From Porphyra umbilicalis (Eukaryota; Rhodophyta; Bangiophyceae; Bangiales; Bangiaceae): DNA of 64,000 nucleotides. Positions within the stretch are counted from its first letter, which is position 1. Each line of letters begins with the position of its first letter. Shown piece by piece: positions 1,361-51,900 of this stretch. The position numbers and the translations under genes are program-made. The stretch lies in contig KV918993.1 in assembly GCA_002049455.2 (NCBI GenBank), forward strand, positions 62,001-126,000, in the 5' to 3' direction. The notes beneath the pieces are model-generated. The model worked only from the letters and a program-made list of their open reading frames with translations, had not been told where the DNA came from and ran no database searches.

Positions 1361-1861
1361 CGAAGCAACGGCGCAGTGACAGCGCCGCGTTGCGTGCGCG
1401 GCGCCCGCCGGGGGGGGGGCGCGGGACTCCCCCCGCGCTGTCGCCCCTCGTTGGCGTATCTCAGCCGCCGGCGTGCCATGATGGCGCGCACGTGCCACCG
1501 GCCGCGGGGGGGGGTTGTCGGGGGAGACACCCCCGCGCTCCCGCTGGGCGGCGTGGCAGACAGCGACGCGAGCCCGGTGCGGTGGCCTGGACGCGCCCCT
1601 CCCCCCCAACCCCCGACGGTCGTATACAACCGCCAGTGTGCGTCGTCGTCCGTGGGCTGTCGGCACCCCCACCACCCCGCCGGCAGTCTTTGCAAGTCCC
1701 CACCCACCCTTGCCCCCGCTTGCCGCCTCGCCCGCCGTCCCCCGCGCCCCTACCCTGATCGTCCTTTTGTCCATTTTCGCAGCACCGCCGTCACGCCCCC
1801 CCCCCCCCTCGCCGCCGACCCTTGACCTTTCCCCCACTCGTTGGTTATTGATCCCCCCACC

Positions 1862-3724
1862 ATGGCGACCAGCCGGAGACGCTTGGCCCGGTGGGCCGCC
1901 CTGCTGCTCGCCGCCGCCGCGGTCGCACCCGCCGTGGCGGCGGCCGCCGACGGGCACGCGGTCACGGGCGGCGTGCGCGAGGCCACAGACGACGCGGGGG
2001 GCGACACGGACGGCGGCCACGCCCACGGTCATGGGGAGGGCGACGCGGGGCACCACGGCGCCGACGGCGGGCAGCACTTGGAGGTGGGGGACGGCGGCGA
2101 CCACCACGCCGAGGCGGACGGGCACCACATGGATGGGGACCACGGGGGGGATGACCACCATGCCGACGATGCAGGGGGCGGCGACCACCATACCGGCGAT
2201 GCCGAGGGCGATGAGGCCAGCGGCAACGTCCAGGCCGCAGCGTCTGGGGCCGAGAGCGAGGGCGAGGCCGGCGCGGACGGGGCCCACAGCGACGGCGCGG
2301 GCACCGACCACGACCATGACCACGATGCCAGCGATGGGCACCATGATGACGACGCCGCCACGGCCGGGGCATCGACAGACGAGACGGGCGACGCGGACGA
2401 TCACTCTGGCCAAAGCCACAGCGAGGAGGGCCACAGCGGGGACCACAGTGACGGCGACGGTGGCCACGACGATGGCGGCGGTGGCCACGGCGACGACGGC
2501 GGCCACGGCCACGGGGGCGGCGTGCACGTTGGGCACGACACGCCCAACCCGCCCCTGACGACCTGCTTCCTCCCATCCGCGCCTGGGGGCGCCCGCAACT
2601 ACTCGCGCTGCCAGTCCCTCCCCGGCCAAGTGCCGATGAGCCTCTACTGGGATGTCGACGAGGCGGCGGGCACCCTCACCGCCGCCTTTACCGCCCAATC
2701 CATCGGCTGGGCGGCGTTTGCGTTCAACGGCGCCGACGAGGCGGACGCGATGCTCTCGGGCGACGCCGCCAACCCCAACGTTGCCGTCGCGGGGAGGGCC
2801 ACGGGCGCCGACACGGCGGCGGTCGGGGTCTACGCGCTGCGCGCCAAAGCGTCGGCGGGCGTGCAGCCGATCGGGTCGGGCGTCTACACGGGGTTGACGG
2901 CGACGCGCGACGCGGCGGGCGCGCTCGTCGTCGGCTTTACCCGCCCGCTTGCGGGCGCCCGCGGCGCGCCCGCGGTGCCGACCGACGGCACGCCCGTCAA
3001 TGCAATTTGGTCGACGGGGCCCCCGTCGCCGTCGGCGGGGGCGTTGCGCAAGCACGTTGGCCACGGGCTCGGCGGGATTGACTTTACGCGGTCGGACTTG
3101 GACGCGACGGCGGCGGGGGGGGGGGACGCCGACGGCAGTGACGGCGGCGGCGACGATGAGTCGGCCTGCTTCCCAGCGTCGGCAATGGTCGACGCCGGCG
3201 ACCGCGGCGCGGTGCGGATGGCAGACCTCCGCGTCGGCGACGCGGTCGCGTCGGCCGCCGCCGGCGGCGCGCCCACCGACGTCTACCTCTTTACACACGC
3301 CGACGCGGATGCGGTGACCCGCTTTGTGGTCTTGACGACGGGCGGCGGCCGGCGGCCGCTGGTCGTCTCCCCCGGCCATTACGTGTTTTTGGCGGGCGGC
3401 CGCACCGCCGCCGCGCGCACGGTGCGGGTCGGCGACGCGCTCGTCGACGCTGCCACGGGCGCGGCGGCGCCCGTGACGGCCGTGTCGAGGGTGCTCGCCC
3501 GCGGCTTGTACAACCCGCAGACGCTCAGCGGTGACTTGGCCGTCGACGGGTACGCCGTGTCGACGTGGACGACGGCGGTGGCGCCGGCGGTGGCGTCGGC
3601 GGCGCTCGCGCCCGTGCGGGCGGTGTATGGGGTGGGGGGGGGGTGGCTGTGGGGGGGGGTCGGCCTGCGGGGCGGGTGGCCACGGCTCGCTGCGCTGCTG
3701 CCGTCGGGGCGGGACAGCTTGTGA
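1862..3724 (+). CDS. Secreted His-rich DOMON-Hint protein
   Basis: 620 aa from an ATG in a good Kozak context (CACCATGG). Order of parts: signal peptide (residues 1 to about 27, twin-arginine-like start then leucine/alanine core); a His/Asp/Gly-rich region (about 30-230) with repeated HGDDGGHGH-type motifs; a DOMON-like beta-sandwich (about 255-408, with SLYWDVDEAAGTLTAAF and a GWAAFAF strand); and a Hint domain (about 435-566). The Hint part starts at Cys436 (ACFPASAMV) and has the MADLRVGDAV strand, the SPGHYVFL motif with the conserved His, and a final VDGYAVSTW strand. DOMON domains bind haem or sugars outside the cell. Hint domains catalyse self-cleavage by an N-to-S acyl shift at the first Cys. 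Hedgehog-like Hint domains are known in red algae. Inferred: a wall or extracellular-matrix protein that may process itself; the His-rich tract could bind metal. The C-terminus is hydrophobic/Gly-rich. No break in frame. Confidence 0.85.
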   Translation: MATSRRRLARWAALLLAAAAVAPAVAAAADGHAVTGGVREATDDAGGDTDGGHAHGHGEGDAGHHGADGGQHLEVGDGGDHHAEADGHHMDGDHGGDDHHADDAGGGDHHTGDAEGDEASGNVQAAASGAESEGEAGADGAHSDGAGTDHDHDHDASDGHHDDDAATAGASTDETGDADDHSGQSHSEEGHSGDHSDGDGGHDDGGGGHGDDGGHGHGGGVHVGHDTPNPPLTTCFLPSAPGGARNYSRCQSLPGQVPMSLYWDVDEAAGTLTAAFTAQSIGWAAFAFNGADEADAMLSGDAANPNVAVAGRATGADTAAVGVYALRAKASAGVQPIGSGVYTGLTATRDAAGALVVGFTRPLAGARGAPAVPTDGTPVNAIWSTGPPSPSAGALRKHVGHGLGGIDFTRSDLDATAAGGGDADGSDGGGDDESACFPASAMVDAGDRGAVRMADLRVGDAVASAAAGGAPTDVYLFTHADADAVTRFVVLTTGGGRRPLVVSPGHYVFLAGGRTAAARTVRVGDALVDAATGAAAPVTAVSRVLARGLYNPQTLSGDLAVDGYAVSTWTTAVAPAVASAALAPVRAVYGVGGGWLWGGVGLRGGWPRLAALLPSGRDSL

Positions 3725-4168
3725 GGGGCGGGGGGGGTGGGTGCCCCGCGGTCGTCAGCTGCGCGTCGTGGCGGCAATGGCCTGTGATAACTGGATGTGA
3801 CTGCTTTGCTGCGTACGACCGACGGCGGTTCCTTTCCATGAGCTCGTGGGCGGTGCAGCACCCCGCCCGCGACATGGCGGTGGTGGCCACCTACGCAATG
3901 GTCCCTATCTGGGGTGGTGCGTCCAGGCGCGCAAGCGCCGTGCAACGCAGATGGAAACCACCAGTCCGTGTGTTTCGCAACAGGATCGGGGAGGGGACTG
4001 GGGTGCCGCCCGCGACGCCGTCAGAAAGGGCGGGTGCCTCCCCCGCCATAGTGTATGTACAACCGTCCGCCCCACCAATCAACCACGCTCCATCCCCACG
4101 CTCGCCGCCTCACCGCAACCCCAACTGCTCCTCGTGCGCCTCCGAGTGGCCGCTCTCCCCATCCCCGC
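3725..4168. other. Intergenic between two convergent genes
   Basis: 444 bases between the 3' ends of the DOMON-Hint gene (plus) and the peptide-repeat gene (minus). It is less GC-rich than either gene. No gene, clear polyadenylation signal or repeat was recognised here. Confidence 0.6.
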
Positions 4169-5392
4169 TCACAGAGTGATCGCTCTGGGCGTCGCCACAC
4201 GGCGACGGCGTGCCACACGCGTCGACGTCGTCCTCGGGGGCGACGCCGTCGCCAACCGCGCATCCGCAGCGAGCACGAGCGTCTCATGGTCGGCGGCCTC
4301 TGTCGGCATCGCTGCGCGGACGGCAATCTCCCCACCGCAGCCGCCCGCTGCCGCCATCGGTGCCTGCGGCGGTGCCGTGCCCCGCGCCGCCGCCGCGTCG
4401 GTCGACGGCGGCGCCCCCGACGCGCACGCGGACCGGTCGTCCTCGCGGGGCGGGCGGGCGGACACGCCGGGCACCAATAGGCCGACGGGGAAACACGACG
4501 GCGACACACGCTCGTCCGGCGTCTGGTCCTTGCTCCCGCCACCTGCATGCACCTCGTCCGCGGCGTGCGTCGCCACGTCTGCCGCCACGACGCCACCCAG
4601 CGCCTCGACGGGCGCGCCCGCCGCCGCCCCGCCCGCCCCGCCCGACGGCGCGGGGGTGGCCGGCGGCGCGACCTCCGCGGCTGCCACCCCCGCCGCCGCC
4701 GCCTCGGCCGCCGGCGACGCGGCGGCGAGCGGCGCCACTCGCGCGACCGCCGCCGGCGCGGCGCGGCGAACAGTGCCGCCGAGCTTTCCCCCAAACGACC
4801 GCCCCGCAGGGTAGCGGTACCGGCGGCTGGCGGCCGCCCCCGCGTCACCCCCGCCACCACCCGCGGTGCCCGCCCCCGCCGCCCCCGCACCCAGCACCGC
4901 GGCGGCAGCGGGCGCGCCGCGCCCGACGGCCGACGGCGCGGCGCGGCGGCGGACCGTCCCCCCGAGCTTTCCCCCAAACGACCGCCCCGCGGGGTAGCGG
5001 TACCGGCGGCCGCCGGCCGCCCCCGCGTCACCACGTGCGCCGCCCACACCCGCCGCCGCCGGCGCGCCGCGGCCGACGGCCGTCGGCGCGACGCGGCGCA
5101 CAGTGCCGCCGAGTTTCCCCCCATACGTCCGCCCCGCGGGGTAGCGGTACCGGCGGCCGCCGGCCGCCGCGCCCGCGGCGTCCGCGGCGTCACCCGCACC
5201 CGCCAGAGCGGGGGCCCCCCGCGCGCCGGCGGCGGCACCCCCACTGGCGGCCACCGCCGCCACCGCCGGCGCGGCGCCGACGGGCACGGCGGGCACCGGG
5301 AGCGCGCGCTCCGCAACCACCGACGGCGGCAGCGCCGACGCGGCCACGGCCGCCACCGTCGCGGCGGCGAGGAGCGCCAGCGTGCGCCCCAT
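4169..5392 (-). CDS. Putative secreted peptide precursor with three dibasic-flanked repeats
   Basis: 407 aa from an ATG at 5392. That start is chosen because it opens with a clean signal peptide (MGRTLALLAAATVAAVAASA), although the frame stays open further upstream. Residues 80-100, 129-149 and 190-210 are three near-identical blocks. Each is a 17-residue core, YRYPAGRTYGGKLGGTV or YRYPAGRSFGGKLGGTV, bracketed by Arg-Arg on both sides, and at least the first two are followed by an AP.AVGRGAP spacer. Between copies the codons differ mostly silently (six silent and two conservative changes between copies 1 and 2; only silent changes between 2 and 3), so the peptide itself appears to be conserved. 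The rest is Ala/Gly-rich, with a more ordinary C-terminal third containing a few Cys. No known family was recognised. The layout resembles a prohormone cut at dibasic sites, but processing is inferred. An alternative is a structural wall protein or a nucleic-acid-binding repeat. Confidence 0.6.
   Translation of the reverse strand: MGRTLALLAAATVAAVAASALPPSVVAERALPVPAVPVGAAPAVAAVAASGGAAAGARGAPALAGAGDAADAAGAAAGGRRYRYPAGRTYGGKLGGTVRRVAPTAVGRGAPAAAGVGGARGDAGAAGGRRYRYPAGRSFGGKLGGTVRRRAAPSAVGRGAPAAAAVLGAGAAGAGTAGGGGGDAGAAASRRYRYPAGRSFGGKLGGTVRRAAPAAVARVAPLAAASPAAEAAAAGVAAAEVAPPATPAPSGGAGGAAAGAPVEALGGVVAADVATHAADEVHAGGGSKDQTPDERVSPSCFPVGLLVPGVSARPPREDDRSACASGAPPSTDAAAARGTAPPQAPMAAAGGCGGEIAVRAAMPTEAADHETLVLAADARLATASPPRTTSTRVARRRRVATPRAITL
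4763..5155 (-). repeat. Three copies of the RR-flanked 17-residue coding repeat
   Basis: Copies at 5093-5155, 4946-5008 and 4763-4825. Peptide distances are 49 and 61 residues, so this is not a simple tandem array. The conserved core YRYPAGR(S/T)(F/Y)GGKLGGTV lies between Arg-Arg pairs in every copy. Confidence 0.85.
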
Positions 5393-6704
5393 CGTGGGGG
5401 GGAGCGGGAGCGGGGGGGGGGGGGTGCGGGGCGGGGGGGGGGGGGGGGGGGGGACCCCTCGAGCACCCGACGTGCGTGGCGTGCGTCGCACCGCAGGGCG
5501 GGGGGTGCACGCGCCGCCGCGAGCGCGCGGGTGGGGGATCCCGTCGGGCGTGCAAGGCGGCCGGCGACGCTTTGACGGAGGGGGACCAAGCGCACGGACG
5601 ACGCCGGCGGGGTGGGACCGCTTAAGGGCGACGGAGCGGTGGCACTGGGGGGCTGCCGCCAGCGCCCCGGTTGCCGCCGCCGCGCTGGGCGGCACGGCAC
5701 GGCGGCAGCGGGACGCCCTGCTGGCACGGACCGGCCGTCGCACGGCATGTGCGGCCGCCGCGGCGCGGTGCGTGCGGCACACCCCACGTCGCCCGGCCAG
5801 CCGCAGCGTCGACGGGCGGCCCGAGCCCCGCGCCACCCCCGTGTACCGTCGGGCACGTGGCCGCCTGCGTCGGCGCGCCGCGCGGCCGCGTCGCGCGCAC
5901 CCGTCGCGCGGCGTGGGGGGCCCGCCGCGCGGGGGCGCCCCAGCCCCCCCACCCGGGGGGAACACGGGCCACTGGGCCGGGCCAGGCGTGGCACGGGCGC
6001 CCGCGGCGTCGGTCCCTGCCGCCGCCCCCGCCGCCGCCACACGTTGCCGCGGCGCCCGGCGGCGGGCGACCGTGGCGTTGCGGCGACGCGGCAGCGCCGC
6101 GCGCCGACGCGGCGCCTCGCGGCAGCCGCCGCCGCGCCGACGCCGCCACGGCACCGCCGTCGGCGCGTCGGCGGGGCGGCTGCCCCGCCCACCGCAGGCG
6201 CGTGTGCCGTGGCGCGGTGCGCGCGCGCCGGCGGCGCGGCGCCACCCCACGGGACGGCCCCCGCGCGTGTGGCGGCGGGGGGCGCCCGCGCGCGGGGGGA
6301 GAGCCACGCCGGCGCGCTCGCCGCGACCGCGCGAAAACGTGGGCGCCGCCCGCAGCGCGGCGCGGCCGCGTCGCGGAGCGTGGCAGCGGGGCGGCGGCAC
6401 GGCACGGGGCGGAATCGGGCGTCGGCGCGCCACTCGCGCGGGGCCGCACCGTGGCAACGGCTGCTCGCTGCTCGGGGCCCCCCGCGTGGGCGCGTGTGGG
6501 CCAAATCCGCGTCTGGGGGGCCCCCCAAGCGAGCCCCCCGCCGCGGGGGGGGCTCGCAGCGGCTGCCACGGATCGCTGTCTGGCTTTCGGTTGCAGGCAA
6601 TAAATTTAGCGGCTCAAGTGATCGATTGTTCGTGGATCAATGTAGTTATTGAAGGGTCCTCCTGGAATTGAATCTGCCGGTGGTCTCCCGCGAAAGGGAC
6701 AGCG
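5393..6704. other. Extremely GC-rich stretch without a recognised gene
   Basis: Up to about 6600 this is G/C-dominated sequence, with runs of G at 5408-5455, that stays open in several frames on both strands. The predicted proteins are Arg/Ala/Pro/Gly mixtures with no motif, as expected from composition alone. From about 6600 the sequence abruptly becomes AT-richer, marking the edge of the transposon-rich region. Confidence 0.5.
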
Positions 6705-6783: not shown

Positions 6784-8549
6784 CGGGGTTGTATCTCGAA
6801 AAAAACGACCCACGATGACACGTGGGCTACAAGAGATCGTGGGTGGGGCTACAAGAGATCGTGGGGGCTCCCTGGGGAGGTGTTGGGGGGGGGGGGGGGA
6901 TTCGAGGGATTAGGGGGGTGCTGGGGGGGGTGCTGGGGGGGGGGTTGGGGGGGGGGTTGGAGGCCGGGTTGGGGGGGGGTTTGGTCGGGGGTCGGGGGGA
7001 GCTCAGCAGCGTGCTAGGGGGGCTCGGGGGCGCAAATTGGCATTGTGGGCGGGTCGTCAATTTCGACGCACACTGGCCTGACACGTGCAGAGGAGCTCAC
7101 GTGGCCGATACCATCGCCCCACCAGTGCTGTGTCAGTGCCGCACCGCACCCCACTCCTCGGCTACCGCGGCCGTCCCTGCCCTTCTCCCCACTGACAGCC
7201 CGTCGCCACTACAAGTGTTTCTCGTTTTGTGTGTTTTCCTGCCTGGCCGCCCACCCGGCCGCTGCCGACGTGTCATCTGCCAAGGAGGTCCTGCTGGACA
7301 AGAAGAGACGCGCGAAGATAGAATTCCCGTTTCCAGCTGGTCAGAAAGAACAGAGTACAGTATGGGAGACCGGCCGCAGTGCTGTTTCCCACAAAAAGCA
7401 ATGGGAATCGCTATAGGCAGGAACAGAAGGCACATTCGGTATCCACAAGATGGGGCAGTGCCAGAAAAACGCACGTGATCCATTGGACTGGCAAGTGTTG
7501 GCACTGCTTTGACGTACAATCCGGGACACTCCAGCAATGCGCTCCTAGTTTATTCTCGCTGGCACGCGCACAGCGGTGGTCCGGTCCACCGGAGCAATCC
7601 ACAGCAGGTGGCCAAATGCATCCCCCATGGCTGGCTACCGCCGCAACGGCGAGCACGACAACGGTGACCTCATGCTACTTCCACTCACGTGTGTACCCCA
7701 CCTAGGTCCTTCCCCCATTGTGCGAACGTATGAGCTATCACTTGCTCGTATACGAAGATCGGGAGGGGGGAGCTGTGAGACCATGGCGGCGTGCGGGCAG
7801 TGACCCTCGTCTCGGATTGACGGGGCCCATGGGAAGATCCTGCGCCAGAGGATGTAGCTAATCGGCCGAAAAGCGACCATCAACAGACAATCAGATACTG
7901 TTCAGATGACAGCTTTCACTGGACGTATGTTACTGAAGTCTCGTGGCACGGTCACTGCCTTGGGAGCCGTGTCGGTCAGGCGTCAAGCGTTCTGAGGCCT
8001 CTCAATGGTAGTTGCATGCAAGGAGCTGCGGTTGTGTCGTGCTGTACTCAGGCTGCACATCGTCTCGACGTTGAATAGATAACTTTTGACCACTGGACCT
8101 GATTAGAGTATTCTACAAGATTCACTGAGACCAACTTCGTTTCAAGCTCACATCGGTCGCGGGGCACGCGTGAAGGGCAGCAGGTAGGGTGTCATATGAG
8201 CATGAAGGAGCCCTTGTGGTACTATTCTGAGCACACCGACGTGACCAGGGATTGTCCTCCATCCTACTTGAGCTCTTCGGTTGATTGTGACGTGGTGTTC
8301 TTTTTGGGTCGGACGTCTGGTAAAACGCGGAGGATGCCATGGACATGCCGAGCGGGCAAGGGCAACACGTCTTGGGACAGTAGGGTGTCAAAAACAAAAG
8401 TCGTGCGGCCCTTGACTTCATCATTTCCTCTGGGTAAAGTGACGTCCCTGATCACGCCTATACAGTCAGAATGGACTGAAACTCACACCAACATGCTGTT
8501 TTGCACCGATATGTATCCAGCAACAGTGCTTTTCCGCACATGCGAGCAT
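6783..8549 (+). repeat. Left arm of the 10-kb element
   Basis: Inverted copy of 14991-16774. Short open frames inside it are not convincing: their mirror copies contain different frame breaks, and the composition is not protein-like. The G-rich tract lies at 6870-7010. Confidence 0.85.
6870..7010 (+). repeat. G-rich subterminal tract (G-quadruplex-prone)
   Basis: Repeated runs of five to nine G separated by short spacers (TGCTGGGGGGG-type units), giving many possible four-tract combinations. The complementary C-rich tract is at 16540-16690 in the other arm, so both ends of the element carry it in the same relative orientation. Confidence 0.7.
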
Positions 8550-9200
8550 CGTCGGCGGTTCTGCCCACGCGCTTGTTTGGTTACTTCAGTGTATTTCAAG
8601 AGTCCCACCGTGTGGTGCTCCCGGGGAATGTGCGATTCCAGACTGGAGAAGGACTTTCGAGAGATTGGTGCTCCACAGACTACGGCTCCATCGACCATTC
8701 CGAGGCAAAGGCAATGGGCAAGCGCTGTGTGCGGCCAAGACCCGGCGTCCTCGGCCACTTTTCGTCCAATTCGGGATCAATCGGAGTATACAGTGCTCGG
8801 CGGTCCTGCCCGCGCGCTTTTTTGGCTACTTCGGGGCGATTCGTGTTCACTGTAAGAATCAATAACACCGTCTGTTGGAGCGGGGCGCACCCCCAAGCTG
8901 CTCAGACGAGATCACTGTCAGATCGTGCTCTTGAGGAAAGCATCGGAATGGGCTTTGAGGCCGTCTTTGATCCAGATGCAAGGCCTCGTGCGGATCGCCA
9001 GAAATCTTGCACTTTTATTCGGACTCCGACTGGCGAGCGCCGCTCCGGGGTGGCAGTAACAGAGGGACACTGACGCTGACAGTGCTCCTGCCTTGCAGCG
9101 ACGTGCTTTTAGACGATTTTCATTGGATACCAGCCGTGTCCACATTGTTCTGCTCGTGTAGCCGTATGCCTCCGGCACTATGATTGGTTGGCGGTGGCTT
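8550..9200. other. Interior of the element, no gene recognised
   Basis: Ordinary-composition sequence just inside the left arm. It has a degenerate direct repeat (8553 and 8797, both reading CGGCGGT.CTGCCC.CGCGCTT and then a TACTTC stretch). Short open frames on both strands have no recognisable features. Confidence 0.4.
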
Positions 9201-11500
9201 CTTCTCACAAAACTTGCACGATTGGTCGGAGGGTCCGCCACCTCCAGCGGCTTCAAAGAGCGCCGCAGGCGCCGTCGCCCGGCCCCCCCCTCCCCGCCGC
9301 CCGCACGTTCGTCGGCAGTAGCGGTTTCGTCGGCGGCGGCGACGGCAGCGGTTGCCGCGGAGCCGGCGGCGGCGACCATGGCGGAGCGCGGGTCGCCGTC
9401 GGCCGCGGGGATGGAGCTGCGGTTGTGGCGACGGCAGCGGTGGTAGCGGCCGACCCGCCGACCCAGTCGGGCGGGTCTTGCTGGTGGCGAGCGGACCCCC
9501 CTAGCGGGGGAAGAGGACGGGCACCAACAGCAGCGCCAGCGGCGGTGGCCGACTTGCCCGCCACGACGGGCGGCCGGCCGGCCGACGGCTGGCCACCGTG
9601 AGCGGCGCCGCCGCCGCCCGCGGCGGCGGGGGCGGCGGCGGCCCCCCCCGCGGCGGTGGTGGCCCGCTGCCGTGCCCCGCTGGCACGCGGGAGGGTGGCG
9701 GCGGTCACCGACCGCCGGGCGGGCGTCCCGCCGCGGCGGCGGCGCCAGCGTTGACACCCTTGCGGCGGCGGCAGCCGCTGTCGACGGCGGCCAGGAGTGA
9801 CCGCGTCGGTGTCGGTGGCGGCGGCAGAGGCGGCAGCGGCGGCGGTGGCGGGTGTGGCCGGCGCGCGACGGCGCCCCGCGGTTGGAGGCCAGGCGGCCGT
9901 GACCGCCGCCCTCACCTGCGACGCGACCGCCCGCCGGTCGTGCGGGCGGCGGTCCCCGCCGGCTACAGGCCGCCGGATGTCGGTGAGTGGGGTCGGGGCG
10001 GTGCCCGCCGCGTGTCGGCGTCGGGCGCCGCCGGCGGGCCGGGCGCCTTTGACGAGGCCGACGGGGAGGCCGACGACTGTGGGTGCGGCCGTCGCGGCGG
10101 CGGCGGCGGTAGCGGCTGCACCGCGGGGGACGGCGCCGAAGCGGCGGCCGCGTCGGCCAATGCGGCCGAAGAACCAGAGGACGAGGCGCTGGCGCGCGGG
10201 TCGGCCGAGACGGGGGGAGGGGGCGTGCCGCCCCCCGGGGGGGTGGTGGGTTGGGGGGTTATGCGGCAGCCGCGCGCGGGCGGGCTGCCACTGGGCGACG
10301 CCGGCAGCCGTGAAGGGGGGGAGCTCTGTCGGGATGGGGGGGGGGACGCGCCCGTATCGTGGCCCCGCGGCGCCCCGGCGGGCCCTGACGGCGGGCCTTG
10401 CGCGCCCCCTGTGTCCGGAGGAATGCCAGACGGTGGCGGCGGCGGCGCGCCGGCCGGCCGGTTTGGGGCGCCCGCCGGCGGCGGCGGGGCGGTCGGCCCA
10501 CCGTCGGGCGGCCGGTTTGGGGGCGCAGGCCCCGGCGGCGGCGGGCGCGTCTGGGGCGCCGGTGGTCCCCGCGGTGGCCCGTCGGCCGGCGCCCCTGGCG
10601 ACGGCTGTGGCGGCGGTGGTGGGGGTGGCGGCGGGAGCGCCGGCGGCGCCCGCGCCGGCACGGTCGGCGGCGGCGCGCGTGACGGCGGCGGTGGGTTTGG
10701 GTCAACTGGGGGGGGCGGCCGCGTCTGTAGCGGTTTGCGGGATAGCGGCAGTGGCGGTGGCGGTGGCGGTGCGGGGCGTGGCGGCGGGCCCGGGGGGGTG
10801 GCGGGGGGCCCCCGCAGCCGTGGAGTGGTGGCGGTGGCGGCGGCGGCAGCTTTGGCGGCAGCGTTGCGGCTGGCGGGCGGGGCAAGTGGCGACGCTGCGA
10901 CGACGAGCGTGGAGACGGCAACGTCGAGCGGCGCAACCACCCCCCAACCCCGGGACGGGCCGGCCTAGAAATCGCAAGCGGTGGAGGGGGGGATGGCGTC
11001 GCCGTCGCCGCGTGGCGCCGGCGCTGCCCGCCGCCGCCGGGCAGGGTGGCGGCGCCTCGGCCGGCGGGTTCGCCGGGTGACGCCGCGGCGGCAACGGGCG
11101 AGGCTACGGCAGGGGCGAGCGGCAGGCCCCCCCCCCCCCACCATCGCGCGGCGGTCAAGGAGGCGCGCACGACTGGGGGGGGGGCGGCGTCGCCGGCGAA
11201 GCGTAGACCCCGGGCGGCGGGCGGGCGCCAGCGGCGGCAAGGGGCGGCGCCGCAGCGGCGGCCGCTGTTTGCGCGGCCGCAGGCCACAGGCGCCCCGCGC
11301 GGGGCGGCGCCGCGGCGGCCGACGGCGGTGGTGACTCGGCGGCAGTGCCTCGGCGCGGCCGGCCGCCGTCGGGCAACGGCGGGGCGACGGCGGCGGTGGC
11401 CGGCGGCAAGGTGGTGGGCTGCACCGGTGGCGCGGCGGCGGCGGGTTGCGCCGCCCCAACACGTCCCCCTGGTGTTGTTGGTCGCGTGTCAGTCTTTGAT
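9201..11500. other. Gly-rich/Pro-rich low-complexity block, strand uncertain
   Basis: Very GC-rich. On plus it reads as Gly-rich protein with GGRFG-like repeats (about 9598-10968). On minus, 9963-10940 reads as a clean 325-residue Pro-rich protein with PPPPP tracts and PPNRP motifs, like a hydroxyproline-rich or FH1-type linker. Each strand's reading is the other's shadow, and the sequence alone does not decide. No catalytic or binding domain was seen. It may be a captured host gene fragment inside the 10-kb element. Confidence 0.3.
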
Positions 11501-11761
11501 TGGCACAAAATTGGATCAACAAATCTGCATCCGCCAAATAGTACTGAAGCATATGCCCAAAATCAGTAGAAAATATTTTGCACAGATTGTGCGAGAAACC
11601 GAACAAACCGGTTAGCTATCCGGATGCATATCCGCCGCTGAAGTGCTCCCGTGGTGCTACCGTCTGCGACACATTTAGCCTCCCTGCGCGACTCTCTGGC
11701 GACACTCTGTCGTATTGTGTCACCATTGTGTCGCTCATGAGGAACCAAAGTGTCACCTTGG

Positions 11762-13165
11762 TCACGACCGCCGACGATTGCGTGAGAACCGCTGGCGCGG
11801 CGTGGCTGCGGTGCCCGCCGCGGGGCCGGCCGGCACCATCCCACCGGCGGCCCCGCCGGCGGCGGCGCCCCCCCCACCGCCCCCACCGCCGCCGCCGCCG
11901 CCGCCGCCGCCACCCCCGTGACAGCCGACCGTCGATGAGCGGCGGCCGGAGCGGCCGCCCGCCCCCGCCCCCGCCCCCGCCGCGGAGCGGGTCACGATGG
12001 AGCCGCTCGCCAAAAAGACGGCCGGTTCGGGGGCGCTCCCCCCCCCCCCCGGCACGTCCGACCGGTAGAGCAGCACCACCCCCGACCGCAGCTCTGCATA
12101 AGCAGCGTACGCCTTGGCCCCCCGCCCGCCGCCAGTCGCCGCACTCGCCGCCGCCGTCGCGGCGGCGGCGGCGCCGCCAAACCAGCCCCGCTGCGACGGC
12201 GGCGCCGGCGTTGCGGCCGTGGCGGCGGCCGCAGCGGCGGCGGCCGCGGCGGCGGCCGCCGCCGCCGCAGGCGGCCCCACCCCGGGCGCCGCCGCCTCGG
12301 CGTCGAGGCGCAGCACCGTCACGTCTGCCGCCGCGTCGGCGGGGAGGCGGGCCACGAGCGCCAGCGGGAGCACCCCCGTCGGCGTCACGAGGGGGGGCGG
12401 CGGCGGCCGTCCCGCGGCGGCGGCGACCGCCCCCGCCGGCGACGTGGCCGCCGCCGCCTTGGCGTCGGCGGCTCCGTCGGGGGGCTCCCCGCCGCCGCCC
12501 TTGGCCGAGGCGCCCCGCTTGGCGTCGGACGCCGCGGAGCGGCTCGACTCGCGCGACGCGCGCCAGCCGCCGCGCTCGGCGGGGGCGGCCTTGGCGTCGG
12601 CGCCGCCGCCGCCGCGGTCCCGCTGCCGCTCCCGCCCGCGCCCCCGATCCCGCTCCCGGTCGCCCGCGCCCGCAGAGCCGCTGAGGTGCCCGAGCGGCAG
12701 CGACACGGACCACGTGCGGCGGCGGCCATTGCCGGGCTTGTCCGTCCCGGGCGGCAGCAGCAGCCGCAACGCCGACCACGCGCGCTCCCCAGACGTGCGC
12801 GGGGGGGGCTGCAGCGCGCGGGGGGTGGGCGGCGTCCGCTCCGCCCGCCCGGGCAGCGGGGAGGCGCTGGCCACCGCCAGGGGCGCCGCCGCCGCGACCT
12901 GGGCCACCGGCGACCGCTGCGTCGGCAGCGCCGCGTCGGCCGACGCCGAAGCGCTGGCGGCGGCGGCGGCGGTGGCGGCGGCAGCGGCGGCGGTGGTGGC
13001 GGCGGCGGCGGCGGACGCGCTCCCCGCCCGCTCGGCTGTCGACACGGCCGCCGACGGCGCCACGTCCCCGTGCCCTTCGGCCGCGGCGCGCGCAGCCGCG
13101 GCCACCACGACGGCCGCCTGGGCTGCCGGCGGGGCGGCGCCAGCGGCGCGGTCGCTCATGGGCAT
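11762..13165 (-). CDS. Hypothetical Ala-rich protein with a possible PH-like strand pair
   Basis: An open frame of 467 codons from the ATG at 13165 (an upstream in-frame ATG exists at 13360). Long alanine tracts alternate with less biased segments: RAWSALRLLLPPGTDKPG, a charged Arg/Asp/Glu stretch, VTPTGVLPLALVARLPADA, and YAELRSGVVLLYRSDVPG followed by PAVFLASGSIV. The last resembles the first strands of a PH domain, but only weakly. The beginning of the gene (about the first 60 codons plus the 5' flank) is duplicated in inverted orientation at 13509-13960. It lies inside the 10-kb element, so it may be captured cargo. Function unknown; an antisense Ala-rich frame also exists. Confidence 0.35.
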   Translation of the reverse strand: MPMSDRAAGAAPPAAQAAVVVAAAARAAAEGHGDVAPSAAVSTAERAGSASAAAAATTAAAAAATAAAAASASASADAALPTQRSPVAQVAAAAPLAVASASPLPGRAERTPPTPRALQPPPRTSGERAWSALRLLLPPGTDKPGNGRRRTWSVSLPLGHLSGSAGAGDRERDRGRGRERQRDRGGGGADAKAAPAERGGWRASRESSRSAASDAKRGASAKGGGGEPPDGAADAKAAAATSPAGAVAAAAGRPPPPPLVTPTGVLPLALVARLPADAAADVTVLRLDAEAAAPGVGPPAAAAAAAAAAAAAAAATAATPAPPSQRGWFGGAAAAATAAASAATGGGRGAKAYAAYAELRSGVVLLYRSDVPGGGGSAPEPAVFLASGSIVTRSAAGAGAGAGGRSGRRSSTVGCHGGGGGGGGGGGGGGGGGAAAGGAAGGMVPAGPAAGTAATPRQRFSRNRRRS

Positions 13166-13960
13166 GCCGGCAGCGGTAGACCGGCAGCCGGCACCCAGTA
13201 TAGGCGCCGCCGTTCGCTGCCCCCCACCCCGCCACATGGCATGTGTGACCGTTTTATCGCGTGAATGCGAGGTCCCCCTGAGCAATGAGGATGCTACAAT
13301 GGCTTCAAATCGGGTGATAAATTGAACATGAGCAGCACAAGGCGCGGAAAGTGGCCCCATCGCAATGGCGTCAGGAGAGGGATTTGGATCTAAATCGTTT
13401 GCAACTCTACCGCCTCTCAGGCGCTGGAAACAGCCCCCACGATCTATTCTAGATGTTTAATCTCTAGAATAGAACGTGGGTCCGTTTCTCTTGAGATACT
13501 ACACGGCCGTTTCCAACGCCTGAGAGGGGGTAGAGTTGCAAACGATTTAGATCCAAATCCCCCTCCTGACGCCATTGCGATGGGGCCACTTTCCGCGCCT
13601 TGTGCTGCTCATGTTCAATTTATCACCCGATTTGAAGCCATTGTAGCATCCTCATTGCTCAGGGGGACCTCGCATTCACGCGATAAAACGGTCACACATG
13701 CCATGTGGCGGGGCGGGGGGCAGCGAACGGTGGCGCCTATACTGGGCGCCGGCTGCCGGTCTACCGCTGCCGGCATGCCCATGAGCGACCGCGCCGCTGG
13801 CGCCGCCCCGCCGGCAGCCCAGGCGACCGTCGTGGTGGCCGCGGCTGCGCGCGCGCCGGCCGAAAGGCACGGGGACGTGGCGCCGTCGGCGGCCGTGTCG
13901 ACAGCCGAGCGGGCGGGGAGCGCCTCCGCCGCCGCCGCTGCCACTACCGCCGCCGCCGGC
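12980..13960. repeat. Inner palindrome around 13470
   Basis: Arms 12980-13431 and 13509-13960 are inverted copies with only scattered differences. The spacer of about 77 bases consists almost entirely of the second copy of the MITE-like palindrome (13427-13506). The right arm ends where the Ala-codon repeats of the left arm begin to diverge. Confidence 0.85.
13427..13506. mobile_element. MITE-like short palindrome, copy 2
   Basis: Inverted relative to the copy at 6705-6783, with the same TCTAGA...TCTAGA core and the same CCCACG and GAAAC arms, about 88% identical by eye. It sits exactly at the centre of the inner palindrome. Confidence 0.6.
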
Positions 13961-14990
13961 TGCCAAGCCGCGTCACGCAGGGCGGTGCCGGGGGGGGCCG
14001 CCCCGTCGGTCGCGGCGGGGGGGAGAGACGTAGCGTCGGCACCCCCCCCGCCAGCTCCCGATGGCCACCGGCACAGGGCGCCGCGGCCAGTGGTGCGCGT
14101 CGCCGCAGTGGCGGATTGGAGTGAGGCAGCCTATGCGTGTCACGCCGCGGTACCCCCCCCCCACTAGCACGGGCCACCACGCGGTCGCCGTCGGCGGCGG
14201 CGGAGATCGCGGCGGCCGCTGCCGCTACCTCCCCACCCACCGACCACCGCGCCGCGCGCTGCGCCGTGCCGCAGAGGGGAGATATCCGGTAGGCAGTGAC
14301 GGGGCTGGACGGCGCAGCGTCGCTAGCACCGCGCCCACTGGTGGCCCCAGCGGGTGGCAGTATGATCGTCGCCCCCGTTGCGGGCGCCGCGGCGATACCC
14401 GCCTCCACCAAAGCCGGGGACCGCCACGCCGCCGGTGCCTCCGTGCTGGTGCTCGCGGGCGCGGGTGCAGCAGCGGCGGCTTTTTCCGCGTCTGTAAACG
14501 GGTGAGGATAAGCCTCGTCACCGTCAGCGGCAGTGGCGGCGGCCCAGTCTACGGGGATTGCTGCACCGCCGCCGCCCCCACCGTGGTTCCAAGCACGGAT
14601 TAAACTTGCCTGGCCCACTTCTTAGGGTGGCCGCCCAGCAGGCGGAAGACGGGCAGGGTGACCCAGGGGCGGTCGCCGCCGCTCCGCGAAACCCCCGCTG
14701 AGGTGCTGTGTTCCCGCGCAGTGCTGGGGCCGGTGAGGAGGCGGCAGGGAAGGGTACGTGCCCTGACGCCTCCCACGCATCCGCCCTCCCCGGTGCCGTG
14801 GTGCTGACAGCAGCGGTGGCGGCCGGACCGCTCGCTGCATCGCGGCTATCGACGCCGCGTGCAGGGGCGCATGTTGCCGCGCCGCCGTCGCCGTACCGAC
14901 GTCGGCCGTAGTTGCCAGCAGGACAATGGGCGGCTGTGATGGCAGCAGCAGCGGGCACCGCAGCCACGCCGCGGCAGCGGTTCTCACGCA
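13961..14990. other. Interior of the 10-kb element, no gene recognised
   Basis: GC-rich, with several overlapping frames on both strands and no domain. At 14955-15000 there is an inverted match to 11775-11823 (GCGTGAGAACCGCTG and GCGGCGTGGCTGCGGTGCCC), so a short segment at the arm boundary also occurs in the middle of the element. Confidence 0.4.
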
Positions 14991-16774
14991 ATGCTCGCAT
15001 GTGCGGAAAAGCACTGTTGCTGGATACATATCGGTGCAAAACAGCATGTTGGTGTGAGTTTCAGTCCATTCTGACTGTATAGGCGTGATCAGGGACGTCA
15101 CTTTACCCAGAGGACATGATGAAGTCAAGGGCCGCACGACTTTTGTTTTTGACACCCTACTGTCCCAAGACGTGTTGCCCTTGCCCACTCGGCATGTCCA
15201 TGGCATCCTCCGCGTTTTAGCAGACGTCCGACCCGAAAATAACACCACGTCAAAATTAACCGAAGAGCTGAAGTAGGATGGAGGACAATCCCTGGTCACG
15301 TCTGTGTGCTCAGAATAGTACCACAAGGGCTCCTTCATGCTCATATGACACCCTACCTGCTGCCCTTCACGCGTGCCCCGCGACCGATGTGAACTTGAAA
15401 CGAAGTTGGTCTGAGTGAATCTTGTAGAATACTCTAATCAGGTCCAGTGGTCAAAAGTTATCTATTCAACGTCGAGACGATGTGCAGCCTGAGTACAGCA
15501 CGACACAACCGCAGCTCCTTGCATGCAACTACCATTGAGAGGCCTCAGAACGCTTGACGCCTGACCGACACGGCTCCCAAGGCAGTGACCGTGCCACGAG
15601 ACTTCAGTAACATACGTCCAGTGAAAGCTGTCATCTGGACAGTATCTGATTGTCTGTTGATGGTCGCTTTTCGGCCGATTAGCTACATCCTCTGGCGCAG
15701 GATCTTCCCATGGGCCCCGTCAATCCGAGACGAGGGTCACTGCCCGCACGCCGCCATGGTCTCACAGCTCTCCCCTCCCGATCCTCGTATACGAGCAAGT
15801 GATAGCTCATACGTTCGCACAATGGGGGAAGGACCTAGGTGGGGTACACACGTGAGTGGAAGTAGCATGAGGTCACCGTTGTCGTGCTAGCCGTTGCGGC
15901 GGTAGCCAGCCTTGGGGGATGTATTTGGCGACCTGCTGTGGAATGCTCCGGTGGCCCGGACCACCGCTGTGCGCGTGCCAGCGAGAATAACTAGGAGCTC
16001 GTTGCTGGAGTGTCCCGGATTGTACGTCAAAGCAGTGCCAACACTGGCCATTCCAATGGATCATGTGCGTTTTTCTGGCACTGCCCCATCTTGTGGATAC
16101 CGAATGTGCCTTCTGTTCCTGCCTATAGCGATTCCGATAGCTTTTTGTTAGAAGCAGCTCTGCGGCCGGTCTCCCATACTGTACTCTGTTCTTTCTGACC
16201 AGCTGGAAACAATACGGGTATTCTATCTTCGCGCGTCTCATCTTGTCCAGCAGGACCTCCTTGGCAGATGACACGTCGGCAGCGGCCGGGTGGGCGGCCA
16301 GGAAGGAAAACACACAAAACGAGAAACACTTGTAGTGGCGACAGGCTGTCAGCGGGGAGAAGGGCAGGGACGGCCGCGGTAGCCGAGGAGTGGGGTGCGG
16401 TGCGGCACTGACACAGCACTGGTGGGGCGATGGTATCGGCCACGTGAGCTCCTCTGCACGTGTCAGGCCAGTGTGCGTCGAAATTGACGACCCGCCCACA
16501 ATGCCAATTTGCGCCCCCGAGCCCCCCTAGCACGCTGCTGAGCTCCCCCCGACCCCCGACCAAACCCCCCCCCAGCCCGGCCTCCAACCCCCCCCCCAAC
16601 CCCCCCACCAGCACCCCCCCCAGCACCCCCCCCAGCACCCCCCTAGTCCCTCGAGTCCCCCCCCCCGCCCCTACACCGCCCCAGAGAGCCCCCACGGTCT
16701 CTTGTAGCCCCACCCACGATCTCTTGTAGCCCACGTGTCATCGTGGGTCGTTTTTTTTCGAGATACGACCCCGA
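14991..16774 (-). repeat. Right arm of the 10-kb element
   Basis: Inverted copy of 6783-8549. The C-rich mirror of the G tract is at 16540-16690. The mirrored subterminal motif TGTAGCCCACG is at 16725-16740. Confidence 0.85.
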
Positions 16775-49561: not shown

Positions 49562-49724
49562 CCAGTGATGCGTGAGGTGTGATAGGACAGTGTTGCGCCG
49601 GCAGCACGTCTATTTCGTTCTTTCCGCCGTCCCCCCCACCTTGACTTGCAGTATGGACCCCTCGACCCCTCAGCTGCCCGCGGGGTGGACTTCCGTCGTC
49701 TCCCCCCCGTCCCCCGGTGCCACC

Positions 49725-49842
49725 CCCGTCGCCACCCCCCGTCGCCACCCCTCGTCGCCACCCCCGTCGCCACCCCCCGTCGCCACCCCCCGTCGCCACC
49801 CCCCGTCGCCACCCCCCGTCGCCACCCCCCGTCGCCACCCCC
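49725..49842 (+). repeat. Minisatellite, unit CGTCGCCACCCCC
   Basis: About nine units of 11-13 bases differing in the length of the C run. Confidence 0.9.
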
Positions 49843-51170
49843 TGTCAGCTGGCAACACGTTCTGCATGCACCCGCCCCGCCCTGCTCGCCCCCTCCCTGT
49901 CGCATTGTTCGGGCGGTCAACGCCGGTGGCGGCCGGCGGGTTCCTCGCGCCGTCGCGCCCACCTCCTTCCCTCTCCTCTCGCCCGCGACGCTGGCAGCGG
50001 CGCTGCCGACGCCACCGCCGCCGCCGTAGCCGCCACCGGCGCCGCGGAGGCCTTGGCCGCCGCCGCTTGCCTCTTGCCCACCGAAGCCGGCGGCAGCAGC
50101 AACACCGTCGGCAGGACCGCCCGTGGCTGCCCGAGCAAGAGCGGCGCCATGCTCGTGGCCCCGAAATGAGCACGGCGCAGCGGGACCCGCGCCGGGGTGT
50201 GGGGGAGAGGGCGAGGGCGCAGGTCACGGGGCTGCCAATGCACCCGTCGGGGCGTTCCACGCCGGCGCGCGGCTTTGGGCGATGGGAAACCCAAGGCGAC
50301 CGCCGCCTAGGCCGTCGCCACCAGCAGGGGCGCGCATCGTGGGGCGTCGTTGGCGGCCCGGCGCCGGCCGTCGCAACCGCCGCCGCCGTGTGTTGCCGCG
50401 ACTGCCGGCGCAGCCGCCGGCACTCGCGGTGCAGGCACCGCCCCCGGAGGGAGGCCCAGAGCGTAGCTCGCCAGCGTCTGCCGGCCGCGGTCGTCCCAGT
50501 GTCTTGCCGGTCGCGGTCGTCCCAGCCGGCAGGGGTGTCGTCGCCGCCGCTGTTGCCGCTGTGGACGTCGTCCCAACTGGCAAGGTGGTCGTCGCCGCCG
50601 CCGATGCCGCGGCGGACGTCGTCGCCACCGGCACGGCGGTCGTCACCGCCGCCGATGCAGCGGCCGACATCGCCCCCGCCGACAGCGCCGTCATAGCCGC
50701 GTCCGCCCCCGCGCGCCGCCATCCTCTGCCGTGCCGCCGGGATAGCCGATGTCGACGCCGACGCGGCGGCGTGCGTCGTCACACCCGTGATGGTTCTTAC
50801 GTCGGGATGTGCCGCCGCCGGCGCGACGGTTGCCGTTCCGACCGCTATCGCAGCCGCCACCGCCGGCAACTGCGAATCCGTTGTGGACGCCGCCACCAAG
50901 GATGTCGCCATCATGGGCGCAGCCGCCGCCACCAAGGGGGACGAAAAGTGGCGTGCCACCGCAGTCCGGGCCGCAGCCTCCGGAGCGGCTCCCGCCGCCG
51001 CGGGGCCTGCTCGCGGCGTCGCCTCCGCCGGTGCTGTGTCCCCAGCGTCCGCCGTCACCACTGGCGCCGCCGCTCTCAGCACTCGAGCAATCGGAGGGGG
51101 GGCGGGTGTGGGGGAACATCGAGGTTGTTGAGGGAGAGGGGCGGTGGGGGGTTGCCTGGGGGCGGACAAA
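49843..51170. other. GC-rich region, Ala-rich frames, no gene recognised
   Basis: Plus-strand frames give Ala/Val/Asp-rich repeats (VVVAAADAAADVVATG type, 50560-50700, unit about 51 bases). The minus strand gives one long 683-codon frame (49670-51721) with Gly/Arg and Ala tracts. Neither has a signal peptide or domain. Composition alone could keep both open. Confidence 0.35.
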
Positions 51171-51900
51171 GCAGCATGAGATGACGCGGCCGCCGCGACC
51201 ATCGCCGCCGCCACTACCACTTCCGTCGCCACTCCAACTGCCGCCGCCACCGCCACCGCTGCAGCCGGGCTTCCACCGCCGCCGCTGCGTCCGCTTTCAT
51301 GGCCGCCAATGCGGCCGTCGAGGCCGCCACCGCCGCCGCCGCTCCCAGCACTCGGAGCAATCGAAGGGGGGGCGCGCGTTAGGGGACATTGGGGTTGGTG
51401 AGGCAGGGGGGCGGCGGGGGCGGGGCTGGGGGCGGGCGAAGCAGCATGCGATGACGCGGTCGCCGTGACCACCGCCGCCGCCATTACCACTTCCGTCGCC
51501 ACTCCAACTGCCGCCGCCGCCGCCACCGCTGCAGCCGGAGCTTCCTCTACCGCCGCCACTGCGTCCGCTTTCATGGCCGCCAATGCGGCCGTCGCGGCCG
51601 CTACCGCCGCCGCCGCTCCCAGCACTCGGAGCAATCGAAGGGGGGGCGCGCGTTGGGGGACATTGGGGTTAATGAAGCAGGGGGGCGGAGGGGGCGGGGC
51701 TGGGGGCGGGCGAAGCAGCATGCGATGACGCGGTCGCCGTGACCACCGCCGCCGCCATTACCACTTCCGTCGCCACTCCAACCGCCGCCGCCGTCGCCAC
51801 CGCTGCAGCCGGAGCTTCACCGCCGCCACTGCGTCCGCTTTCATGGCCGCCAATGCGGCCGTCGCGGCCGCCACCGCGGTCGCCGGCAGTGGACCGCCGC
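51171..51900 (+). repeat. About 275-bp tandem repeat, 2.6 copies
   Basis: Units begin near 51171, 51447 and 51718, each with AAGCAGCATG(A/C)GATGACGCGG, a GCCGCCGCC-rich middle, CTGCAGCCGG, TTTCATGGCCGCCAATGCGG and, in the first two, AGCACTCGGAGCAATCGAAG. Partial homology extends back to about 51080. Copies 2 and 3 are the most alike. Confidence 0.85.

Follow-up and report, generated by a model that had tools for sequence, protein, structure and literature searches.

A predicted secreted repeat protein of Porphyra umbilicalis that may be a wall-binding protein or a peptide precursor

The repeat protein and its surroundings

The window analysed here is a 64,000-nucleotide stretch of contig KV918993.1 of the red alga Porphyra umbilicalis, with a GC content of 52-82% in 2-kb blocks. 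Four Bangiales genomes are given as 64-68% GC and other red algae as 37-57% in the available part of a published comparison (PMC7423979). The minus strand carries an open reading frame (ORF) of 407 amino acids at 4169-5392, whose first in-frame ATG lies at 5392. Its main features are as follows.

4169..5392, minus strand: repeat-protein ORF, predicted to be secreted; stop codon at 4169-4171, last ~60 residues uncertain
5312..5392, minus strand: predicted signal peptide, approximately residues 1-27, from hydropathy, with a putative cleavage site
5093..5155, minus strand: copy 1 of the 21-residue block, RRYRYPAGRTYGGKLGGTVRR
4946..5008, minus strand: copy 2 of the 21-residue block, RRYRYPAGRSFGGKLGGTVRR
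4763..4825, minus strand: copy 3 of the 21-residue block, RRYRYPAGRSFGGKLGGTVRR
4172..4708, minus strand: C-terminal tail of 179 residues, pI 5.6; the end of the frame may differ from the true end of the gene

A preliminary description of this DNA had reported three 17-residue copies between Arg-Arg (RR) pairs. These are indeed present: the blocks span exactly 4763-5155, all six RR pairs were found, and the three copies lie in the same frame of the same ORF. The block reads RR-YRYPAGR(S/T)(F/Y)GGKLGGTV-RR. Copies begin at residues 80, 129 and 190, giving start spacings of 49 and 61 residues, and the spacers between them are rich in Ala, Gly and Pro. The whole protein contains 10 RR dipeptides versus 3.8 expected in shuffles, a count that includes overlapping runs and the C-terminal RRRR. 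Basic residues outnumber acidic ones 26 to 2 in the repeat region (149 residues), whose pI is 12.0, compared with 5.6 for the C-terminal tail. GC by codon position is 0.84/0.76/0.87 overall, and the codon phase pattern becomes faint near residues 351-407 (0.69/0.71/0.76). A single-sequence structure model contained one helix (residues 3-17) and nothing after it; with a mean pLDDT of 35.5 from a single sequence, the model says little, and on this basis the protein is probably intrinsically disordered.

Directly upstream of the ATG, the plus strand has a G-rich run (5396-5453), which would form a C-rich 5' leader if transcribed. Read from a Met at 1862, a convergent neighbouring ORF (1841-3724, plus strand) has a signal-like N-terminus; it also contains a stretch rich in His, Asp and Gly and, at its C-terminus, a Hint module (Pfam Hint, E 4.1e-19). 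Its middle part, which had no Pfam match at E 1, we take to be DOMON-like. On the other side, 6799-16757 consists of inverted arms (~1.75 kb in pieces, 90-98% complementary) around a 6.4-kb centre. A 1-kb piece of the arm occurs at 40 or more places in the genome, itself included, with 93-100% identity (40 of 92 candidates scored), and this region looks like a recently spread element adjoining the gene. Further into the window, a 274-bp unit is repeated 3.1 times at 51058-51885 (91% matching) and partly overlaps a 683-aa minus-strand frame (49670-51721), and 49711-49846 holds 10.6 copies of the 13-bp unit CCCCCGTCGCCAC. A light-harvesting complex (LHC) exon had its best match among solved structures in chain 7y5e_62, presumably part of the Porphyridium purpureum megacomplex.

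Constraint on the repeat core

Pairwise codon comparison gave the counts originally claimed, namely six silent and two replacement changes between copies 1 and 2, and five silent changes and no replacement between copies 2 and 3. Copies 1 and 3 have three states in common that differ in copy 2, so that the 11 pairwise silent changes count some sites twice. Because pairwise counts are therefore not independent, core changes were recounted as minimal events. This yielded 8 silent and 2 replacement events (P of at least 8 silent out of 10 = 0.0017), both replacements setting copy 1 apart from copies 2 and 3. The corresponding dN/dS-like ratio was 0.11, not the value near 1 between repeats that the preliminary description had named as speaking against its reading. 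In a base-matched random placement test, the core had 2 variable residues versus 6.2 expected (p = 0.0005).

The flanks were taken as 24 codons per copy (9 before and 15 after), aligned by hand without gaps and with the third Arg codon of copy 2 omitted. They showed 13 silent and 18 replacement events, counts that do not differ significantly from the neutral expectation (P = 0.17); the dN/dS-like ratio was 0.66. The contrast between core and flanks gave a Fisher p of 0.067 on minimal events and of 0.025 on the two adjacent pairs, both of which include copy 2. Pairwise values were 0-0.05 (dN) and 0.25-0.41 (dS) in the core versus 0.18-0.40 and 0.32-0.75 in the flanks. The limit of constraint at the RR pairs is not sharp, as partial conservation extends over the 15 residues that follow (APxAVxRxAPxAA; pairwise dN 0.11-0.28, dS 0.43-0.91). 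Considering that 8 of the 9 variable core sites are clustered in codons 10-19, some gene conversion may have taken place.

The plus-strand frame that shares wobble positions with the ORF gives the same silent and replacement counts, yet it carries a stop in all three copies, which rules out antisense coding; in each of the other four frames, pairs of copies differ by at most one silent change. The silent/replacement pattern in the ORF frame thus bears out coding on the minus strand, as had been proposed. The accompanying claim of conservation at the protein level only held as far as selection on the core is concerned, but was overstated, since the DNA at 4689-5032 (copies 2 and 3 with their spacer) is itself a tandem repeat with 84% matching. 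Taken together, the peptide core looks preserved by selection, with the constraint strongest in the 21-residue block.

N-terminus, relatives and proteases

The 12-residue hydropathy maximum within the first 30 residues was 2.49, at residue 5, a value reached by 0.22% of shuffles. In the same genome, six signal-like subtilase N-termini reached 1.94-2.56, compared with 1.30-1.53 for three LHC transit peptides, and the neighbouring Hint protein reached 2.42 from the start at 1862 that we chose. This comparison relied on hydropathy rather than a trained predictor and on few, hand-picked sequences: the six subtilases came from 14 loci scanned out of 17 matches, and the LHC set comprised three first exons picked by eye at three loci, out of 10 LHC matches. 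The three exons begin MAAFV, MYAFVG and MMGFV, i.e., with transit peptides that no signal peptide precedes, which is the pattern of a primary plastid. A Phe near the N-terminus was considered as a separator of secreted and plastid proteins and dropped, as it is present in four of the six signal-like subtilases; hydropathy alone separated the groups. The previously suggested signal peptide is thus consistent with the hydropathy of the N-terminus, which resembles the subtilases more than the LHC transit peptides among these few examples, and the protein is probably secreted.

Relatives were sought first of all in the alga's own genome (83.8 Mb, 665 contigs). Two protein searches returned the three copies of this ORF and nothing further; another returned this ORF and two weak matches (E 0.04 and 0.31), which we judged compositional from their E-values. 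The DNA search gave at least 130 matches including self (40 of 48 candidates scored), mostly weak and GC-rich, and the non-self matches were judged to be GC-rich low-complexity similarity. No relative was found in plasmids, and none was confirmed among 387 pattern matches in viral contigs and 593 in GTDB contigs. Pfam contained no matching family at E 1, and another search retrieved POLH-Rev1_HhH at E 2.1, far below its cut-off; NCBIfam had no match to the protein. Five weak matches among PDB sequences, the best at E 0.026, were to four ATP synthase c subunits and a TetR regulator; we judged them compositional because the matched query stretch (69-109) includes the end of copy 2 and the Ala/Gly spacer. 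What had been called a family is therefore a single gene without a relative in its own genome, plasmids, viral contigs, GTDB contigs, Pfam, NCBIfam or PDB. As these collections include no red algal proteome set, the result means absence from them and does not make the gene an orphan. As a predicted secreted tandem-repeat protein, it is of a kind already known. Among the open-licence literature matches listed, judged by titles and abstract openings, there was no red algal repeat peptide precursor, comparable Porphyra repeat protein, comparable pyrenoid linker of red algae or red algal kexin, nor did the core sequence turn up among those matches.

The preliminary description had also invoked cutting by Kex2/furin-type proteases. 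The genome gave no match to the P_proprotein domain (PF01483) and, at E 0.001, none to the Kex1-type S10 carboxypeptidase family (PF00450). It did contain 17 matches to S8 subtilases, 15 of which had a readable serine motif; these read GTSMA(A/T/C)P, GTSMSAP, GTSQAAP or VTSMASP, and none was of the kexin type. In kexins, which combine an S8 domain with a P domain, this motif has the form GTSAAAP. Two of the subtilase matches, L013 and L016, have one in-frame stop each inside the domain match and could be pseudogenes or reflect introns or sequencing errors. The absences are not firm, given that the same kind of search at E 0.001 also missed the PsbO family (PF01716), which is expected in any oxygenic alga. 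Gaps in the assembly, domains split by introns or a genuine lack of the genes could account for the PsbO and S10 misses. Within these limits, we found no enzyme of the type proposed, although an unrelated protease could cut at RR. Of the earlier overall reading, minus-strand coding, selection on the core, a signal-like N-terminus and an origin in a red alga remain, while Kex2/furin cutting and the family found no support here.

Candidate functions of the basic modules

The best explanation, which we favour tentatively on the grounds of the sequence, is a disordered protein that is secreted into the wall or mucilage and binds sulfated galactan through its three basic modules. The signal peptide would bring the protein into the secretory pathway, from which this bangiophyte red algal protein would reach the wall or mucilage. 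There, the three strongly basic 21-residue modules would make multivalent contact with the putative ligand, the wall's sulfated galactan, and the RR pairs would serve as binding residues in a presumably uncleaved chain, not as cutting sites. In the matrix of red algae, sulfated galactans are dominant, the example in the available part of the source being a carrageenophyte (PMC8307928). We rank the wall protein first because it accounts for the basic residues, the fixed core, the freer spacers and the missing recognised convertase, with no further enzyme needed. That the most constrained block coincides with the RR pairs is equally expected of a cleaved peptide.

Each copy also starts with the pattern XBBXBX, which matches the protein three times in total:

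5141..5158, minus strand: GRRYRY, copy 1, residues 79-84
4994..5011, minus strand: GRRYRY, copy 2, residues 128-133
4811..4828, minus strand: SRRYRY, copy 3, residues 189-194

XBBXBX is described as a pattern of heparin-binding proteins in the part of the source available (PMC2229832). Since 15% of shuffled cores with RR kept fixed also show it, the pattern is weak evidence, a lead rather than a proof. The likeness to heparin-binding segments is this one match per copy; the difference is that here the pattern match stands alone and that the place of heparin would be taken by a sulfated galactan of red algae. Plant repeat-type wall proteins, such as extensins and proline-rich proteins, are secreted, low-complexity proteins with short repeats containing Tyr and basic residues. 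The algal protein resembles them in these respects, but it has no Ser-Pro4 run, its spacers are rich in Ala and Gly, and its lineage is unrelated.

A second possibility, somewhat less likely but to be taken seriously, is that proteolysis of the secreted protein at its RR pairs releases three near-identical signal, defence or adhesion peptides of 17-19 residues. This agrees with the signal-like N-terminus, with the six RR pairs flanking three 17-mers and with a block more constrained than its spacers. Moreover, in-silico cutting at KR/RR produced 8 fragments, including the three near-identical 17-mers, whose similarity we assessed by eye instead of with Fimo. Such a precursor would call for a protease that is not a recognised kexin; a candidate is one of the genome's subtilisin-type S8 proteases, six of which, among the 14 scanned, have signal-like N-termini. 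The missing P_proprotein, S10 and kexin-type serine motif speak against a precursor, with a force weakened by the missed PsbO.

Fungal KEX2-processed repeat proteins (KEPs) offer a yardstick here. According to the available part of the study that defined them, KEPs were filtered for a signal peptide without any further membrane segment, for at least four fragments on KR/RR cutting of which at least three are similar, and for repeats covering 15% or more of the protein; layouts of motifs separated by variable regions were set aside, and 9-24 is the commonest repeat-length class in most Dikarya (PMC6339444). With its 17-residue repeats, the algal protein falls inside this length class, and it passes the fragment filter; for the signal peptide, hydropathy and the within-genome comparison are favourable, based on few sequences. 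Its repeat share, however, is 12.5% (51/407), below the 15% filter, and reaches 15.0% (57/380) only if one includes the RR tails and leaves out the signal peptide. Likewise, its motifs lie between variable regions, the layout that the KEP authors excluded. What it has in common with both fungal KEPs and animal neuropeptide precursors is a signal-like N-terminus and three near-identical short repeats between dibasic pairs, whereas the low repeat share, the long variable spacers and a lineage outside the opisthokonts distinguish it from both. A further difference is that no kexin was found in the algal genome, an absence that is not firm given the PsbO miss.

Far less probable is a disordered plastid linker of the pyrenoid, whose spaced basic and aromatic motifs would bind Rubisco like those of EPYC1 or PYCO1. 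The protein has a pI of 11.2 and is predicted to be largely disordered, without structure after residue 17 in the low-confidence model. Its start spacings of 49 and 61 lie within the 20-120 residues used by FLIPPer, in a study that concerns the green lineage in the part available (PMC11570498). A red algal linker need not resemble EPYC1, as EPYC1 has no homologue beyond the Volvocales. The PYCO1 stickers KWSPRGGS and GTGYNP likewise combine basic and aromatic residues, as given in the accessible part of their description (PMC10288592). Compared by sequence alone, the protein is similar to EPYC1, CsLinker and PYCO1 in its predicted disorder and in having short motifs set apart from one another that contain aromatic as well as basic residues, and differs from them in its signal-like N-terminus, the lack of a KWSP motif and the lack of a predicted helix in the repeats. 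Its N-terminal hydropathy groups with the six subtilases and not with the three LHC transit peptides, its motifs number only three, and the single-sequence model predicts no structured element in the repeats (mean pLDDT 35.5).

We give equally little credence to a long frame arisen by chance in DNA of 82% GC that contains a tandem duplication. In its favour, the 4001-6000 block does have 82% GC with long frames common on both strands, and the searches returned no relative and mostly weak, GC-rich DNA matches. Against it, the silent/replacement pattern (P = 0.0017) suits, besides this frame, a single other one that has a stop in every copy, and the signal-like segment right after the start codon is of a kind seen in 0.22% of shuffles.

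The locus may therefore encode a wall-binding protein or a peptide precursor. For the wall protein, its relevance lies in the fact that structural proteins of macroalgal walls are mostly uncharacterised, as stated in the available part of a review of the field (PMC8307928). If the protein is cut, this lineage, which yielded no kexin here, would be one that matures peptides at dibasic sites. That a red alga without a recognised kexin/furin convertase makes a precursor with several peptide copies between dibasic pairs seems unlikely to us; if true, repeat-precursor peptide maturation would have arisen outside the opisthokonts by means of a different protease, giving red algae a candidate peptide signal. 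The 21-residue motif, being short, constrained and synthesizable, provides a direct experimental handle.
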